From the NCBI GenBank assembly GCA_001839685.1, contig MLAK01000975.1:1-14308 (forward strand): a DNA stretch of 14,308 nucleotides, in the 5' to 3' direction. Position 1 is the first letter of the stretch. Every line of letters starts with the position of its first letter. The notes below the pieces were generated by a model. The model had not been told where the DNA came from. It saw only the letters and a program-made list of their open reading frames with translations, and did not search any database. Below are positions 506-14,308 of the stretch, in pieces. The DNA is from Tritrichomonas foetus. Lineage: Eukaryota; Parabasalia; Tritrichomonadida; Tritrichomonadidae. Position numbers and translations under genes: made by a program.

Positions 506-2605
506 ATGCTTTTGTTCTTTATTTCATTTGCTTCTTTTTATGATGATTTAAAGGAATCTGTTCTATTCCAACCACACAATTGGAATTCTCGTTATTTCAG
601 AATTCCTGCGATTTGTACTGCTAATGATGGTTCTTTAATTACTGCAACAGATGCTCGTTGGATCAACAAAAATGATCTTCCTGCACGAATTTCAGTGATG
701 ATTCGTCGCTCGCCTGATAATGGTGTTTCGTGGAGTGATCCAATTATCATCAGTGGTCCAATCAAAGATACAGGCCATGGTGATGCTTCGATTATGGTTG
801 ATCGTAAAACAGGAACCGTTATTTGTCTTTTTAATGGTGATAATGGTTTCTTTCGTTCAACTGCCAAAAATCCAGTTCATATTTATATGAGTCGAAGTCA
901 TGATAATGGAATTACATGGGAACCTATGATTGATATTACGCATTTCTTATATAGTTCATTATGTACAGAATGTAATAAAGATCGAAAAACTTGGGCTGGC
1001 ATGTTTGCAACATCAGGATATATTTGTCAACTTCGTGATGGTCGTATCATGGTTGCAGGTACTGTTCGTTGTTGGGGTCAAGTTCGTAACTATGCGATTT
1101 ACTCAGATGATTGTGGAGACACATGGGACATGGGACTTACATATGCAGATAAAAGAGCTAATGAAGCTAAATTTGTTGAAAAGAATGATGGAGTTGTTAT
1201 TATCAGTGTTCGTAATCGTGGCTATCGTAGATTTGTGTTTTCATCAGATAGAGGGGATCATTGGGTAAATGAAACAAAAATGACAGATATTTGGGATTCA
1301 CCATGTAATGGAGAAATTATTCGTTATACATCAACTATTGATGGCTATGATAAAGATCGACTTCTTCATACAGTTACATATGTCAAAAATTTCCCACGTA
1401 GAAATGTATCAATGCTATTAAGTTATGATGAAGGTAAAACATGGCCAATTAAGAAACAATTAAATAATGAATCATCACAATTAGGTAGTTATAGTTCTAT
1501 TGCTATTGGAAAAGATGGAATGATTTATGTTTATTATGAAAAAGGTATAAGTTTATCAGATCCAGATGAATTTAATATGACAGTTTCACGTTTTTCATTA
1601 GAATGGTTAACAGATGGACAAGATCGATATACACCCCCTGGTGATCTTCTATGGTGTATTATAAATAAGGAAGATTTAACATCAACTAAATTATGTCCAG
1701 CTAATTATCATCAATTAAATCTTAAAGTGTTTGATAGTTACGTTGAATCGTATTTTATTTATCCACGAACTGTTAATTATATATTTACAACAACTATTCG
1801 AGATTTTACTATTAATCTTTCACGTGAAGGATTAGAAACAGGAAAATATGTGAATGAAATTAAAGATTCAAAACCAACTATTCAATTTATTGGACATTCA
1901 CGAAGTTCACGAACATTTGAAATGAAAAATGTTCATATTATTATTTCATCAGAAGAATTATCTTTTAATACATTTATTTTTGATGATGTTATAATTACAA
2001 TCATTAATACAACTAATCTCTCTAAAGTTGAAATTGGTTCTACACATATACGACTTATTAATCAATATTCCAAAACTAGTTTTATTACAACAATTTTGAA
2101 TGTTTCAAAAGCAACTGTTGAACTTGAAAATGAACATTCAATTGAAGATGAAGCATTATTAATTTTACGAGGAATTTCAGGAGTTGAAAGTCATTCAGGT
2201 TCAACAATTCGAATTATTTCAATAATAAACAAATCACAAATTCACATTAAAGGTAATTGGACAAAAGAAGAAGCACAAAATATTACAATTGTTTCAACAA
2301 CAAATCATCATACACGAGTTCTTCTTGATTTGAAGAATTTGGGTAAATTTGGTATTGAAGGTGAAGAACCAGAATATATTGATACGCCAGATGATGCACA
2401 TTTCGAAATAATCGCCAAATTTCTATCAAGGAAAACTGGACAATCTAATAAAACAGCACAATTTGATAAAAGATCAAAAGGAGCGAAAGGAACATTAATT
2501 TTTCTTAATTTAATTTCGGCAGCAGTTTGTGTATTTGTATTTATAGTATTAATTTCTTTTTTCATTCATCAGAAACAACACACTGCTGAACATCACACCG
2601 CTTAA
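506..2605 (+). CDS. Membrane-anchored exo-alpha-sialidase (GH33, BNR/Asp-box repeats)
   Basis: This 699-residue protein is a sialidase, releasing terminal sialic acid from glycoconjugates, probably at the cell surface. A short hydrophobic N-terminus (about 1-11) may be a signal peptide. The FRIP motif gives Arg32. Arg51 in DAR and Asp57 six residues later match the spacing of the binding Arg and acid/base Asp in trypanosomal sialidases. Asp93 follows. Five Asp boxes (S-x-D-x-G-x-x-W) lie at 69-76, 131-138, 200-207, 246-253 and 306-313. Glu220 and Tyr329 fit the nucleophile pair, and Arg236 and Arg298/299 complete the arginine triad. The six-bladed propeller ends near 370. Residues about 380-660 are an extra ectodomain, rich in Ser/Thr/Asn with many N-x-S/T sites, that I cannot assign. 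A single membrane span (about 663-687) and a 12-residue His-rich tail follow, giving type I topology. The stop is TAAA (2603-2606), which may double as a polyadenylation signal. All catalytic positions are present, so activity is expected. Confidence 0.93.
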   Translation: MLLFFISFASFYDDLKESVLFQPHNWNSRYFRIPAICTANDGSLITATDARWINKNDLPARISVMIRRSPDNGVSWSDPIIISGPIKDTGHGDASIMVDRKTGTVICLFNGDNGFFRSTAKNPVHIYMSRSHDNGITWEPMIDITHFLYSSLCTECNKDRKTWAGMFATSGYICQLRDGRIMVAGTVRCWGQVRNYAIYSDDCGDTWDMGLTYADKRANEAKFVEKNDGVVIISVRNRGYRRFVFSSDRGDHWVNETKMTDIWDSPCNGEIIRYTSTIDGYDKDRLLHTVTYVKNFPRRNVSMLLSYDEGKTWPIKKQLNNESSQLGSYSSIAIGKDGMIYVYYEKGISLSDPDEFNMTVSRFSLEWLTDGQDRYTPPGDLLWCIINKEDLTSTKLCPANYHQLNLKVFDSYVESYFIYPRTVNYIFTTTIRDFTINLSREGLETGKYVNEIKDSKPTIQFIGHSRSSRTFEMKNVHIIISSEELSFNTFIFDDVIITIINTTNLSKVEIGSTHIRLINQYSKTSFITTILNVSKATVELENEHSIEDEALLILRGISGVESHSGSTIRIISIINKSQIHIKGNWTKEEAQNITIVSTTNHHTRVLLDLKNLGKFGIEGEEPEYIDTPDDAHFEIIAKFLSRKTGQSNKTAQFDKRSKGAKGTLIFLNLISAAVCVFVFIVLISFFIHQKQHTAEHHTA

Positions 2606-2788: not shown

Positions 2789-2806
2789 TTAAGGGGCAAC
2801 TGACAT
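2789..2806 (+). repeat. Left terminal inverted repeat
   Basis: Sequence TTAAGGGGCAACTGACAT, 18 of 18 bases complementary to the right end. The match stops immediately outside TTAA (C2788 versus A6242) and immediately inside (C2807 versus T6223), so the repeat is short and sharply bounded. Confidence 0.93.
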
Positions 2807-2854: not shown

Positions 2855-2933
2855 AAAAAGTTATGTTACTAGAATTATTGAAAAAGTTATTCGTCACTTA
2901 AAAAGTTATGTTACTAGAATTATTGAAAAAGTT
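2855..2933. repeat. Subterminal tandem repeat, 45-bp period
   Basis: A 34-base sequence beginning AAAAAGTTATGTTACTAGAA at 2855-2888 recurs exactly at 2900-2933, giving about 1.75 copies with a 45-base period. It lies 50-130 bp inside the left transposon end. Subterminal repeats in DNA transposons often serve as transposase binding sites; that role is only inferred here. Confidence 0.85.
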
Positions 2934-3019: not shown

Positions 3020-3034
3020 CCATTTTCAAAATGG
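3020..3034. repeat. Palindrome spanning the transposase start codon
   Basis: CCATTTTCAAAATGG is a perfect 7-bp inverted repeat around a central C, and its right arm contains the ATG at 3031. It could be a binding site for the element's own protein or a chance palindrome. TCAAAAT at 3026-3032 is a poor initiator match (A instead of pyrimidine at +2). Confidence 0.4.
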
Positions 3035-3612
3035 ATAAAGTGTTTGTTCCAGCGAATAAACTAACTTTTTTCTATCCCTATATATTTTGCTATCACCATT
3101 CACTACAGGGAAGCAAAATGCGAAGAACTGCAATTGAGCAGGCTTTGAAAATCTGCAATATTCCTATTACAACCTATAATATCAATCAAATGCGCTTGTT
3201 TTTTCACAAAAACTGTCATCTGATTCAAACAAAGAATTATGTAGATTCAAAAGCTCCAAATTTCCCGGAGAAACAAACTTTTCATGAATGCAATAATAAA
3301 TTTCACTTATTGTCGTTTTCTCATACAGAGATAATTAATGTACCGGCAATTAGTGAATATATAGATGTTCAAAACTATATTGATTCAATGAATAAAACGG
3401 AAATTATCAGTTTGCTCCAAAGCAACCCAAATTTTGATCAATTTCAATGCAGAATTGAAAATGAGTTATTAAAAAAGGAACATAACCGTTTGAAACAAAA
3501 GATCTCGTCATTGACATATGAAAACACTCAGTTAAAACAAAAAATAACCGAATTAAATAGTTCTTTTTGCGAATTATCTAATAAATTCAGTGAAATAAAA
3601 GCCAAATCCGAA

Positions 3613-5012
3613 AAAAAAATCTTTTACATAAAATATGTAATGAAAAAGTTGATCCTCTTCAATTTACGCTCAGTTGCCTGACAGAAGGTTTATCATTTAG
3701 TCAAGCTGAACGATTTCTGGCTAAATTAAATATAGCCACAATCTCAGAAAAGCATTATTTACGTTTAACTAAAAAAGTGGATGAGATATTAAATGATTTA
3801 ACAAATGAATCATTGAGAAATGCTCGCTCTATGATGAATGAAAAGTCAAGCATTTCATTTGATTCTGCTTGGTCTCACCCAAGAAATGCACATGAATGCT
3901 TTGGTGCTTTCATAGATTTAGCAACACAAAAGATAATTGACTATTATGTAGTGTCATTAAAAAGCCATTGGTCTATTGGAAATTGCGAAGGATTTCCCCA
4001 GTCACTTGAATCAGAAATTTTAAATAAATTAAGTTCTAAATGGTGTTCATTATCAAAAATAGATAGTATCACAATGGATAACGATAACAATGTAGGTGGA
4101 ATATTTACTAAGTTGAACTGGAAAATTATTCAATTTATAGATGTAAATCACGCATATAAGCAATTTAAAAACCGTTTTCTTAAATTTAATTTCGACAATA
4201 AAAATATATTTTCAGATATAATCAAGTCTTTTTTAAAATTCGTTAAAGTCCTGATGCTTGACAGAGATTTACCTCTGATAACAAAAAAAGAACAATTTTT
4301 TAATATTACAGAACATTTTTCGAATAACCATCAGAAATGTTTGCATGAGAATTTAATTGATTTTAAAATTCCAGCTTTTGCGAAAAATATTAATTTAAAA
4401 AATAGACTTGATACGTTTCTTGATGATAATGTTATTATCTTTGAAAAAACAGAACCCCATAAGAATACTCAATGTAATGAAAGTTTACATTCACTCAAAA
4501 TCAAACTGGCTCCCAAAAATAAATCTTGGAAAATGACTTTTTCAACCAGAATGAAAATTACGGTTTTACTTTGGAATGAGGGGCACAAGTTTTATTACCA
4601 GCTCATGAACAATTTTAATATCGCAGAATTAAATGATCATAATAAACAAATTATCGATAAATATATACTGCGAAAAACCCTAAACAAAGAAAAGCAACAA
4701 ACAGAAAAATATATACAACAAAAAAACAAAACTAGAAATCTTAGGAGACAATCAGGGAGGAAAGAAGGTGATTACAAATTAAAGAAAGTTTTCACTCCAA
4801 TAAATATAGAATTTCGGGAAACTGATGTCCTTCATTCAGATTTCAAAGAAGAAGAAGAAACAAACGATTTAGATTTTCGTGAAACCAACTTCAATTCACC
4901 TGAAGAAGATTCTTTTTTTAAGGACATCAATGCAGATGATTGGTTTTCTATGACCATTTTCGATTTGTTTAACTTTGGGAAACTATTTCTTGATCAAGCA
5001 TTACTAGGAAAT
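3613..5012 (+). other. DDE transposase core, Mutator-like
   Basis: Numbering counts the GTG codon at 3777 as residue 1. Before it, the stretch LTEGLSFSQAERFLAKLN followed by TISEKHY resembles the helical region ahead of the catalytic core in Mutator-like transposases. Candidate DDE residues are Asp29 (SFDSAW), Asp101 or Asp103 (TMDNDN) and Glu235 (CNESLHSLKIKLAPK). VNHAYKQFKNR at 123-133 and HFSNNHQKC at 180-188 match conserved His and His/Cys positions of the family known to me as the Mutator-like transposase domain. Residues about 297-337 are strongly basic and 347-388 are acidic, making a charged linker to the protease domain. Insertion of several hundred residues between the DDE positions is normal for this superfamily. 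Family placement is by motif recognition, not by search. Confidence 0.75.
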
Positions 5013-5780
5013 ATTTTTCGTTTATATAATATAGCTAATAATTGTTACATAAACAGTGGAATTCAATTATTAATGAGTTCAGAGCATTTTCGAACTAAGC
5101 TATTATTATTCAATAAAGAAGACGATTTGTTATTATTTTTGAAAAAATGTACAAAAGACATCGTTAACAAAAGAGATATTGATTATATAATAAATTATTA
5201 TATTAATAATTCTACACAAACAATCAAGTACAATGAAAAAGGAGATACCTCTGCGTTTTTACTATTTTTATTGAACGACTTAGAAGAAAAATATAATATG
5301 ATAGCAAATATGACTGGATTTATTGCTAAATCCATTTTATGCTCACAATGTGGCGCTCGAAATGAAGTGTTGGAAAATAACCTACTTTACTCAATTTCAT
5401 GCTCTGAATTACAAAATATTGAAGATTGTTGTAAAAATGAACCTATAAATGATAGTATTTGTCAGTTCTGTAGAAATACTCCTTTAATGATGACTCAAAT
5501 TGTGTCCATCAACATTCTCTTAATTATTCATTTAACTGATTCGAATTATGAACAAATTTTTCACATCAAAGAAACACTTCATATAAATCAAAAATTATAT
5601 TCAATGAAATCGATAGTTTATTTCCGAGATTTACCAGATTCTGGGCATTATTTCGATGTAGTACGCCAAAATAATAAGTGGTTCTTGATTTCAGATTCAT
5701 TTATCAATCAAATAAAAAGTCCTTTTGAGATTGACAAAAAATCACGGCCAGAAATTTTATTATATGAGCAAATTATGCAG
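5013..5780 (+). other. USP-type ubiquitin protease-like domain (peptidase C19) at the transposase C-terminus
   Basis: Numbering counts the codon at 3777 as residue 1; the domain spans about 413-668. The Cys box reads LYNIANNCYINSGIQLL, with the nucleophile candidate Cys423 in the N-x-C-Y-x-N-S pattern of USPs. KGDTSAFLLFLLNDLEE (488-504) matches the QQDAxEF helix; Asp490 is kept but the usual Glu is Ala493. A zinc ribbon is suggested by C522-x2-C525 and C562-x2-C565. The His box is DSGHYFDVVR with His624, followed by KWFLISDS, where the usual third catalytic Asp/Asn position is Ser639 and the next residue is Asp640. EILLYEQ near the end matches the closing strand of the fold. The substrate could be ubiquitin, SUMO or a similar modifier. 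Reduced or lost activity is possible because the third triad residue is shifted. Confidence 0.85.
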
Positions 5781-5789
5781 GATCTGTAA

Positions 5790-6223: not shown

Positions 6224-6241
6224 ATGTCAGTTGCCCCTTAA
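6224..6241 (-). repeat. Right terminal inverted repeat
   Basis: ATGTCAGTTGCCCCTTAA, the exact reverse complement of the left end. It lies about 140 bp past the 3' end of the convergent exonuclease gene. Confidence 0.93.
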
Positions 6242-12638: not shown

Positions 12639-13075
12639 AAAACAAATTTTCAATTAACTTCTTGAATGTATTAGATACATAATATATAATGACATATTAA
12701 AATTTCAAAATAGATTCATGGGCGAAGGGTCTTCTCGCATATTTAATGAAGGAACCAAGCAGACATGTTATGTGAAATTTTGATAGAATTAATATTAATT
12801 CTCACTAGCCTTATACTCAATCTCAGCTCAAATGAATCTTATTGCCTCTCGATAGATATCACATAAGCTACATATTGAAGCTAATTCATCGATATGTCCA
12901 GGACATTGTTGTTCTATCATTTCAGAAATTGACGTAGGATCAGTAAATTTTGTTGAAAATTGACCAATTAATAAGACCATTCAAAGTTATTGATTTCTAA
13001 TTCAGGTAATACTTTTTCTCTTGGAAAAAAGAATTATTCGCAATTAAACTTTATTTTCTCCTTTTAAAAATCTGG

Positions 13076-13083
13076 GATTGATT
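13076..13083 (+). repeat. Target site duplication, left copy
   Basis: GATTGATT, identical to 14258-14265 and directly abutting the left inverted repeat. The duplication is exactly 8 bp; extending either way breaks the match. Confidence 0.8.
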
Positions 13084-14257
13084 AAAGGTACTCCGGCTGA
13101 AAATACGTTATTTGGAAAAACAGTAAATTAGCTTTTTCACCGCAGTGAGCCAACATTTCTGAGCGCTAATATCAGGGCGTAAAAATCGCATGATACCTGA
13201 TGGTTTTAAACCGCGAAATCTCAGAAAAGTCGAAGAAAAATGTTATTTTCAAAAATCAATAATTTTCGAAATTTCTTTTAAAAATAAACCAAAGAGCGTC
13301 AAAATCGGGCAAAGGAGGCAGCAGAATCATTCACATCATCGGGACAGAAACAGACTTCCAAAACTTCCTGCGTGACTCAATACAGCAAATTATCTGATTT
13401 TCGTTTTTGCGGGAGTTGTAACCAAGCGAATTGCCTACAATCCAGTTATGATGAAATACCACTTGTCTGCTTCTTATCGTTTAAATTAATTAAAAATCTG
13501 TCTTTTGAATTTTTTTTTATTGTGATTTGAAATTTTTAATTTTTTATTTTCGGTACTTATCCGGAAAAAAATAGACTGTGAAAGAAGATATGAGTGTTTT
13601 GCGTGCATTCACTATCAAATTATTTCCATTTTGGAAAAACGGAAATAAATGATAATATATTCAAAATCACAATCTTATGATCTTGACCCAGAGATTCAAA
13701 AAGAGATCCTTATTCTGCGACATGACAATGTTTTATGCAACGTTCCGCTTTCTGTGCCGATATTAGAGAGAGATTATTTTTATGAGATTATTTTTGTGAA
13801 ATAATCATCATTGTTACACAGGTTCATGAGATTGGTGTTTTTATGAAATAATGAGATTATTTTTATGAATCCAAATGAATATTTGAAAGCTTATTTCAAA
13901 TTTGTGGATATTAGGGAAACTTCCAATTGATGAAGCTTGTCATAATACCAGTATCTTATATACATTTATAAACGATTTATATCAATGTCATGCGCCCATC
14001 GAGATCCCAAGAAAAGGGACTTAAAACAGAAGTGGTGAATCAATAACTTCTAGATATTATTCAAAATAATGTATTGAAAGTTTGAATATATTCTGAAAAA
14101 TTGTGAAATATGTGTAATAATAAAAAATTATCTCTATCCAACTTTTGGTAAGACCAAATCTTTTATAAAAATAAATTTACAATATTTTAACTCTTATTTT
14201 TACAATATTCCAAAATGATGTAATTTAATTGGTAGCTTTTTAAACCGGAGTACCTTT
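13084..14257. mobile_element. Non-autonomous DNA transposon, 13-bp TIRs and 8-bp TSD
   Basis: The left end AAAGGTACTCCGG (13084-13096) is the exact reverse complement of CCGGAGTACCTTT (14245-14257). Both are flanked directly by GATTGATT. The 1174-bp interior has no credible open frame, so the element would be a MITE-like or internally deleted copy mobilised by a transposase encoded elsewhere. An 8-bp duplication is typical of hAT and P elements and possible for Mutator-like elements; the terminal bases do not match the usual hAT CAGGG ends. An internal GGTACTTATCCGG at about 13552-13564 resembles the terminal sequence in direct orientation, perhaps a remnant of a nested or rearranged end. Neither the ends nor the TSD size match the 3.45-kb transposon, so the two are unlikely to share a transposase. 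Confidence 0.78.
13766..13868. repeat. Degenerate direct repeats inside the short element
   Basis: Variants of GAGATTATTTTTATGA recur at about 13770, 13783, 13827 and 13851, separated by irregular spacers. They lie in the right half of the non-autonomous element and may be simple expansion or binding-site clusters. Confidence 0.6.
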
Positions 14258-14265
14258 GATTGATT
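14258..14265 (+). repeat. Target site duplication, right copy
   Basis: GATTGATT, the direct repeat of the left copy, immediately outside the right inverted repeat. Confidence 0.8.
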
Positions 14266-14308
14266 CCTATAAAAAGTACACAACCTATGCTTCTACGCTT
14301 ATGATTTT

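Follow-up and report, generated by a model that had tools for sequence, protein, structure and literature searches.

Tritrichomonas foetus is a cattle parasite, and one open reading frame of its genome runs from a DDE transposase through a charged linker into a USP (peptidase C19) domain. The locus raises the question of whether the two domains belong to a single transposon protein and, if so, what a transposon would gain from a built-in deubiquitinase. It lies in a 14,308-bp stretch of DNA, referred to below as the window.

The genome examined comprises 63.7 Mb in 1,064 contigs. Its IMPDH matches PDB 1ak5, described in PMC3606566 as the T. foetus enzyme, along 480 residues with no mismatch, which, with the T. 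foetus proteins named below, identifies the host. The assembly used is probably the one with TRFO tags, which we take to be that of strain K. The strain K assembly was built from Illumina reads only and the long-read assembly of KV-1 amounts to 148 Mb (PMC11415386), so repeats would be under-counted in the 63.7-Mb genome.

Anatomy and classification of the element

The features distinguished in the element are listed below (coordinates, strand, description); we consider this anatomy highly probable.

2789..2792, no strand: left copy of the TTAA target site (flush TTAA at both ends in 10/10 copies with both ends readable)
2793..2806, plus strand: left terminal inverted repeat GGGGCAACTGACAT, 14 bp (repeat comparison and genome-wide exact matches)
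2855..2933, plus strand: 34-bp direct repeat in two copies (2855-2888 and 2900-2933), spacing 45 bp
3031..3681, plus strand: ORF1, 216 aa, C-terminal part putatively coiled-coil-like (weak matches)
3594..5789, plus strand: open frame of 731 aa from stop to stop, plus stop codon, with DDE transposase, linker and USP
3611..3619, plus strand: A9 tract, meeting point of the ORF1 and transposase frames (copy comparison)
3660..4343, plus strand: PF20700 match, transposase core (E=4.6e-11, above the cut-off)
4758..5021, plus strand: charged linker, residues 328-415
5019..5765, plus strand: USP/peptidase C19 domain (UCH; profile and predicted fold)
6224..6237, minus strand: right terminal inverted repeat, 14 bp, flush with TTAA
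6238..6241, no strand: right copy of the TTAA target site (flush in 15/15 readable right ends)

As listed from GTG 3777, the transposase–USP frame (ORF2) is 670 aa long. Its acidic residues are D29 (codon 3861), D101 (codon 4077) and E235 (codon 4479), the last of which lies beyond the PF20700 match, and H125, H185, C188 and H190 form an H2CH set. In a nine-row alignment the second Asp, the His after it and the Glu are invariant where letters exist; the first Asp and the H-C-H part are aligned in most, not all, of the rows. D101 and H125 are nearly invariant in 28 rows.

Kolobok elements are described in PMC6004289 as having a TTAA target, RR terminal bases, a DDE core with an H2CH motif and, usually, a THAP domain; the same source cites Meng et al. 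2011 for Kolobok in T. vaginalis. The TTAA target (10/10 copies with both ends readable), the RR ends (as GG) and the DDE core with its H2CH motif are all present here. No THAP match was obtained in ORF1 or ORF2 at E≤1, and the element is therefore filed as Kolobok-type rather than as a full Kolobok member. Judged from its sequence, it is a Kolobok-type cut-and-paste DNA transposon of T. foetus.

The earlier note had called the transposase Mutator-like. That label survives in the name of the Pfam profile PF20700, but the 14-bp ends and the TTAA flush in 10/10 copies are of Kolobok type. A strict Mutator/MULE assignment, for which the target-site duplication given in PMC2725143 is about 9-14 bp, was rejected in view of the short 14-bp ends and of flanks that share TTAA only and otherwise differ; the Pfam name alone says Mutator. 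PiggyBac was also rejected: although the TTAA target is common to both, there is no piggyBac Pfam match in ORF1 or ORF2 at E≤1.

The UCH profile matched the C-terminal part at 51.5 bits against a curated cut-off of 23.9, and UCH was the sole protease family matched in ORF2 at E≤1. In a model of the whole 670 aa the USP half was poor, mostly with pLDDT under 50, and it was therefore modelled alone; structure comparison of this model matched the USP fold. With the whole 670-aa model, Foldseek returned no match at E≤0.001 (the best was Hermes, 1.3e-3), and its further structure matches were DDE folds only, which is no argument against the USP. The predicted catalytic residues are C423 (codon 5043) and H624 (codon 5646), and the four Cys codons of the predicted zinc ribbon start at 5340, 5349, 5460 and 5469. 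At the third-residue pair the domain has Ser639-Asp640 (D640, codon 5694); host USPs have N or D at the first of these positions in 15/16 cases and Ser in one (L064), and D at the second in 16/16. The domain is divergent, its Cys box reading ANNC. Profile and predicted fold together indicate that the window transposase carries a C-terminal USP (C19) domain in which the catalytic Cys and His are predicted and an Asp lies close to the third position.

The fusion in one open frame via a charged linker, on a trichomonad transposon, had been proposed in the earlier note together with a Cys box, zinc ribbon and His box, and all of this is borne out by the profiles, ends and copies and by the residues named above; the UCH profile and the structure comparison both find a C19 fold.

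The single host USP with the same Ser-Asp pair among the 16, L064 (C758:14928-15863), also has the shortest path to the window USP in the USP tree. It is a lead, read from sequence, on the source of the captured domain.

The TTAA plus terminal repeat has 41 exact matches in the genome, against 0 for a backwards control. Near-identical copies or part-copies of the element occur on 16 contigs (C87, C130, C148, C201, C287, C375, C413, C414, C435, C436, C507, C545, C552, C585, C727 and C815). Both ends are readable on ten of them, all ten flanked by TTAA in surroundings that differ between copies, and the right end is readable, with flush TTAA, on 15. The loci compared with the flanks of the 10 copies included no empty site. 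We infer that TTAA is duplicated on insertion rather than being part of the element end, because the ends are shared among copies and because Kolobok is so described in PMC6004289. Near-identical copies at different sites suggest recent movement, with the caveat that short-read assembly of repeats can even out copies.

Of the 16 contigs, 15 carry the full USP domain at 100% protein identity. On 14 (all but C507 and C436) query residues 295-670 or more are covered at 100% identity with no stop; the C436 copy has lost part of the USP, including the Cys box. These data bear on the most trivial explanation, namely that a host USP gene lies beside a transposase and the fusion is an accident of assembly or ORF calling. 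The assembly, probably Illumina-only, does break at the A9 tract, but the join between transposase and USP lies inside the terminal repeats, is kept intact in those 14 copies and recurs in divergent families (see below), which makes an artefact extremely improbable.

ORF1, in which the profile search found no Pfam domain above its cut-off, and the transposase are in different frames that meet at A9. This tract is reached by 14 of the 16 contigs. It is read as A9 without a gap in six (C148, C201, C436, C507, C585 and C727), and an N or gap falls exactly on it in the other eight (C87, C130, C287, C375, C413, C414, C435 and C545). The length of the tract is therefore untrustworthy and statements on frame across it are unsafe, so the two frames were kept unjoined. 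Programmed frameshifting at A9 was considered and, for the same reason, is not claimed. All six copies readable across the tract have the frame break.

Several further arrangements were observed in the window and elsewhere in the genome. The 34-bp direct repeats sit near the left end of the element and are possibly transposase binding sites; about 45 bp or more are missing from some copies. On contig C373 a decayed copy of the window element (C373:7834-8428 and 18458-19854; L046, L047) is split by about 10 kb that include a copy of the USP-DDE_3 element described below, an arrangement that suggests nested insertion. About 1.1 kb between two exact, facing TTAA plus terminal repeats (C455:6858-7988) may be a short non-autonomous derivative. 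The element is flanked on one side by a sialidase-like gene (window 506-2605, a BNR protein with a hydrophobic stretch at its C-terminal end) and on the other by a gene, on the opposite strand, for a 3'-5' exonuclease-like protein. A 30-nt inverted repeat, 80% complementary, with arms 1.1 kb apart (window 13074-13103 and 14238-14267), could bound another small element.

Related families and a second fusion

Three further families with transposase and USP, at 22-23% identity, were found in the genome (C755/C539, C802/C437 and C252/C586). Their UCH E-values are 8.7e-9 for C755/C539, 3.7e-15 and 3.5e-5 for C252/C586, and 4.5e-5 for C802/C437, whose 23.6 bits fall slightly short of the 23.9 cut-off. 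Transposase through USP lies in one frame at L034 and L032/L041, and transposase end, linker and part of the USP at L035, so the two domains are not always separate genes; at L040 they are in separate pieces, and C755 has one stop inside the transposase. The right end is flush with TTAA at L041 and L036 (not L032) and in both copies each of C802/C437 and C252/C586; left ends of the three families were looked for and not found.

The catalytic Cys is present in all five Kolobok-type USPs aligned and the His in the four with a readable end. D or N occupies one or both third-residue positions in 4/4 (S-D in the window USP, D-G in L032, D-D in L034 and N-D in L040). L032 has, besides the Gly at the second of these positions, Gln in place of the Asn five residues before the Cys.

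The genome also holds USP-less relatives whose frame ends after the transposase (L038/L039, L045, L042, L043 and L031). Both ends of L038/L039 lie at TTAA and L045 has a candidate end pair at TTAA with two mismatches in 14; ends of L042 and L043 were looked for and not found. PF20700 was matched in all three USP-less relatives scanned (L038, L043 and L045). In the transposase tree L031 stands next to the C755 family. Its frame (L031:1903-4197) is extended at the N-terminus by a long stretch that matches DUF3447 weakly (E=0.0005, under the cut-off), and an adjacent ORF (L031:3-1619 region) gave weak ankyrin-repeat matches.

A clade of the four USP-bearing transposases without L031 was rejected (AU p=0.007), whereas the same clade with L031 was not (AU p=0.39; L034 is a long branch). 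One gain followed by one loss is therefore the simplest account: as far as the sequences tell, the clade with the window family probably acquired the USP a single time, and one or more of its members then lost it.

A protein search with the transposase alignment returned 27 proteins, including T. foetus TRFO_02672 (100% to L038) and TRFO_19234, and 21 of them carry PF20700. UCH was found in none of the 27 in precomputed annotation and in none of the 10 rescanned, a weak absence. Searches with the 670-aa sequence and with the alignment of the four fusions each found a single protein, P0001, which belongs to the same genome. The protein search was word-limited and most contigs of the proteins returned by the transposase search are short, which makes absence of the fusion elsewhere a weak result.

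A USP is fused to a second, different transposase in the same genome. At L051:1091-3331, L052:495-2735 and L046:3610-5631 the USP stands in front of a DDE_3 transposase (at L051, UCH 6.8e-24 and DDE_3 7e-23). The frame of 747 aa is complete and 100% identical at the protein level in eight places and truncated in a ninth; C373, C226, C393 and C580 hold copies that are divergent, partial or decayed. In the two copies compared the left end reads TA then CAGTCG, which we take to be of Tc1 type; the right end was not found, the sequence running into N. The genome has 74 DDE_3 matches, 10 of which fall within the USP-bearing frames of this element.

Because the transposase superfamilies differ and the domain order is reversed, the Kolobok-type and Tc1-type fusions are separate events. 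In the USP tree a 97/94 branch among host USPs separates the two types, with long branches flagged; the AU test did not reject one clade of both types (p=0.18) and gave p=0.10 for the Kolobok-type USPs alone. This tree holds 16 host USPs of the 143 UCH matches, most of them chosen as matches to the transposon USPs, so it is not a survey; fragment L035 and the C226 copy (L070) were left out.

The Tc1-type USP keeps the Cys, the His and N-D. Across both element types the Cys is present in 7/7 transposon USPs aligned and the His in 6/6 readable ones. This conservation speaks against a role as a ubiquitin reader, in which the domain would mainly bind ubiquitin and guide the transposase to ubiquitinated chromatin or to complexes of the host, with catalysis weak or secondary. 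Such a role would fit the divergence of the Cys box in the window USP and its Ser639 in the first third-residue position; we nevertheless regard it as improbable.

Between the window element and its decayed copy on C373, pN and pS in the USP are 0.034 and 0.061 (15 and 7 changes). One transposase stretch gave a pN of 0.051 with a pS of 0.117 and another 0.045 with 0.120; for two linker stretches, with 1 to 10 changes, pN was 0.088 with a pS of 0.036, and 0.020 with 0.102. Between L040 and L035 the USP counts are 10 non-synonymous against 2 synonymous changes and those of the transposase 4 against 7, a pattern that points to constraint on the transposase and gives no sign of it on the USP. Two divergent copies of the Tc1-type element gave dN/dS values of 0.20 for the USP and 0.08 for the part that follows it, both rough estimates at a dS of about 1.75. 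These comparisons bear only weakly on selection in the Kolobok-type USPs, so the case for function is built on retention over deep divergence and on the second fusion.

The same data bear on whether the USP is a passenger, a host domain captured by chance and carried along with no benefit to transposition. USP-less relatives, the C436 copy and the comparison of L040 with L035, which shows constraint on the transposase and no sign of it on the USP, are what would be expected of a passenger. Against this stand the retention of the fusion in four families at 22-23% identity, the dN/dS of 0.20 for the USP of the Tc1-type element, and recurrence in a second superfamily, with a third in print (PMC2836005). 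We think a passenger improbable, to about the same degree as a ubiquitin reader.

Possible roles of the attached USP

We favor, tentatively and at slightly less than an even chance, a USP that acts in cis or on neighboring transposases and shields the transposase or its complex from host ubiquitin. The transposase would bind the short inverted repeats, excise the element and insert it at TTAA. The attached USP, working in cis or on neighboring transposases of the same complex, would strip ubiquitin added by the host. The transposase or transposition complex could thereby escape proteasomal destruction or ubiquitin-driven disassembly, and the removal of ubiquitin would prolong or rescue transposition. 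In this way a built-in USP may let the element resist the protein-disposal or gene-silencing machinery of the host.

Protection in cis is preferred because the USP is covalently tied to the transposase, because the element has no other recognizable targeting module, and because of a precedent proposed for Helitrons. Counted in its favor are the UCH match above the cut-off, the USP fold, the ends with TTAA, the fusion kept in four families and the second fusion. Counted against it are the divergence of the USP (the ANNC box and Ser639, and the Gln and Gly of L032), the USP comparisons in Kolobok-type families, which reveal no constraint, the frame break in 6/6 copies readable across A9, and the USP-less relatives, in which a Kolobok-type transposase can do without a USP.

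The explanation that ranks next, unlikely as we consider it, places the target in chromatin or repair: the tethered USP would deubiquitinate histones or repair factors at donor or target sites and so open up silenced chromatin or steer repair once the element has been excised. Structure matches to the USP domain include SAGA Ubp8 and USP1 on FANCD2, though not in first rank, and PMC2836005 proposes repair-linked roles for OTU and Ulp1 domains on transposases. On the other hand, generic USP fold matches say nothing on substrate, and the element has no histone- or nucleosome-binding module above the Pfam cut-off.

A broader hypothesis, possible but doubtful, is that trichomonad DNA transposons have repeatedly and independently fused USPs to unrelated transposases (behind a Kolobok-type one, in front of a Tc1-type one and, in print, with transposase_11), since ubiquitin tagging of transposases would be a main host control in these protists; each fusion would then be a counter-defence carried by the transposon.

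If the USP works in cis, it would offer a direct handle on host ubiquitin control of transposases and on how elements escape it. USP-bearing and USP-less sister families in one genome, together with a separate fusion in another superfamily, make the question testable. The findings also carry a warning, in that some of the many proteins annotated as "host deubiquitinases" in genomes of this kind are encoded by transposons: among the 143 UCH matches listed, at least six come from the Tc1-type element.

Comparison with known systems

Fusion of a transposase to a C19 domain is a kind already known, because PMC2836005 describes both the T. vaginalis protein XP_001314237.1 and Ginger1 fusions with OTU or Ulp1. 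The former, named in the discussion of that paper as having transposase_11 and Peptidase C19 domains, runs counter to the earlier note, which knew of no described element with a USP-type protease on its transposase. Among literature titles and abstract openings, subscription papers and Repbase reports aside, we found no transposase-C19 fusion besides that of PMC2836005, and no Kolobok-type or Tc1-type USP fusion. XP_001314237.1 resembles the window protein in joining a DNA transposase and a C19 deubiquitinase domain in one trichomonad protein; compared by its published description, it differs in the transposase superfamily (pfam01609), and a search of this genome for pfam01609 gave no match at E≤0.01.

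The T. vaginalis Mutator-like elements of PMC2725143 are likewise trichomonad DNA transposons, with a transposase profile related by name, but their target-site duplications are 10-14 bp; the words "protease" and "ubiquitin" are absent from the main text of that paper. Ginger1 transposases, as described in PMC2836005, share with the window protein a C-terminal cysteine protease of the ubiquitin/SUMO system, but there the protease is OTU or Ulp1 rather than C19 and the transposase is integrase-like. In this genome C48/Ulp1 gave seven matches, none an obvious repeat.

Helitrons also carry a deubiquitinase domain inside a transposon protein, and PMC9741609 suggests that their VTD and OTU deubiquitinases protect proteins required for transposition. 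They differ in that the protein is a rolling-circle RepHel, the deubiquitinase families are others, and deubiquitinase activity has been studied for VTD (PMC9741609). With the Kolobok superfamily the window element shares the TTAA target, the RR ends (here GG), the DDE core and the H2CH motif (PMC6004289); it is set apart by ORF1 and ORF2 without a THAP match and by the USP domain added to its transposase.
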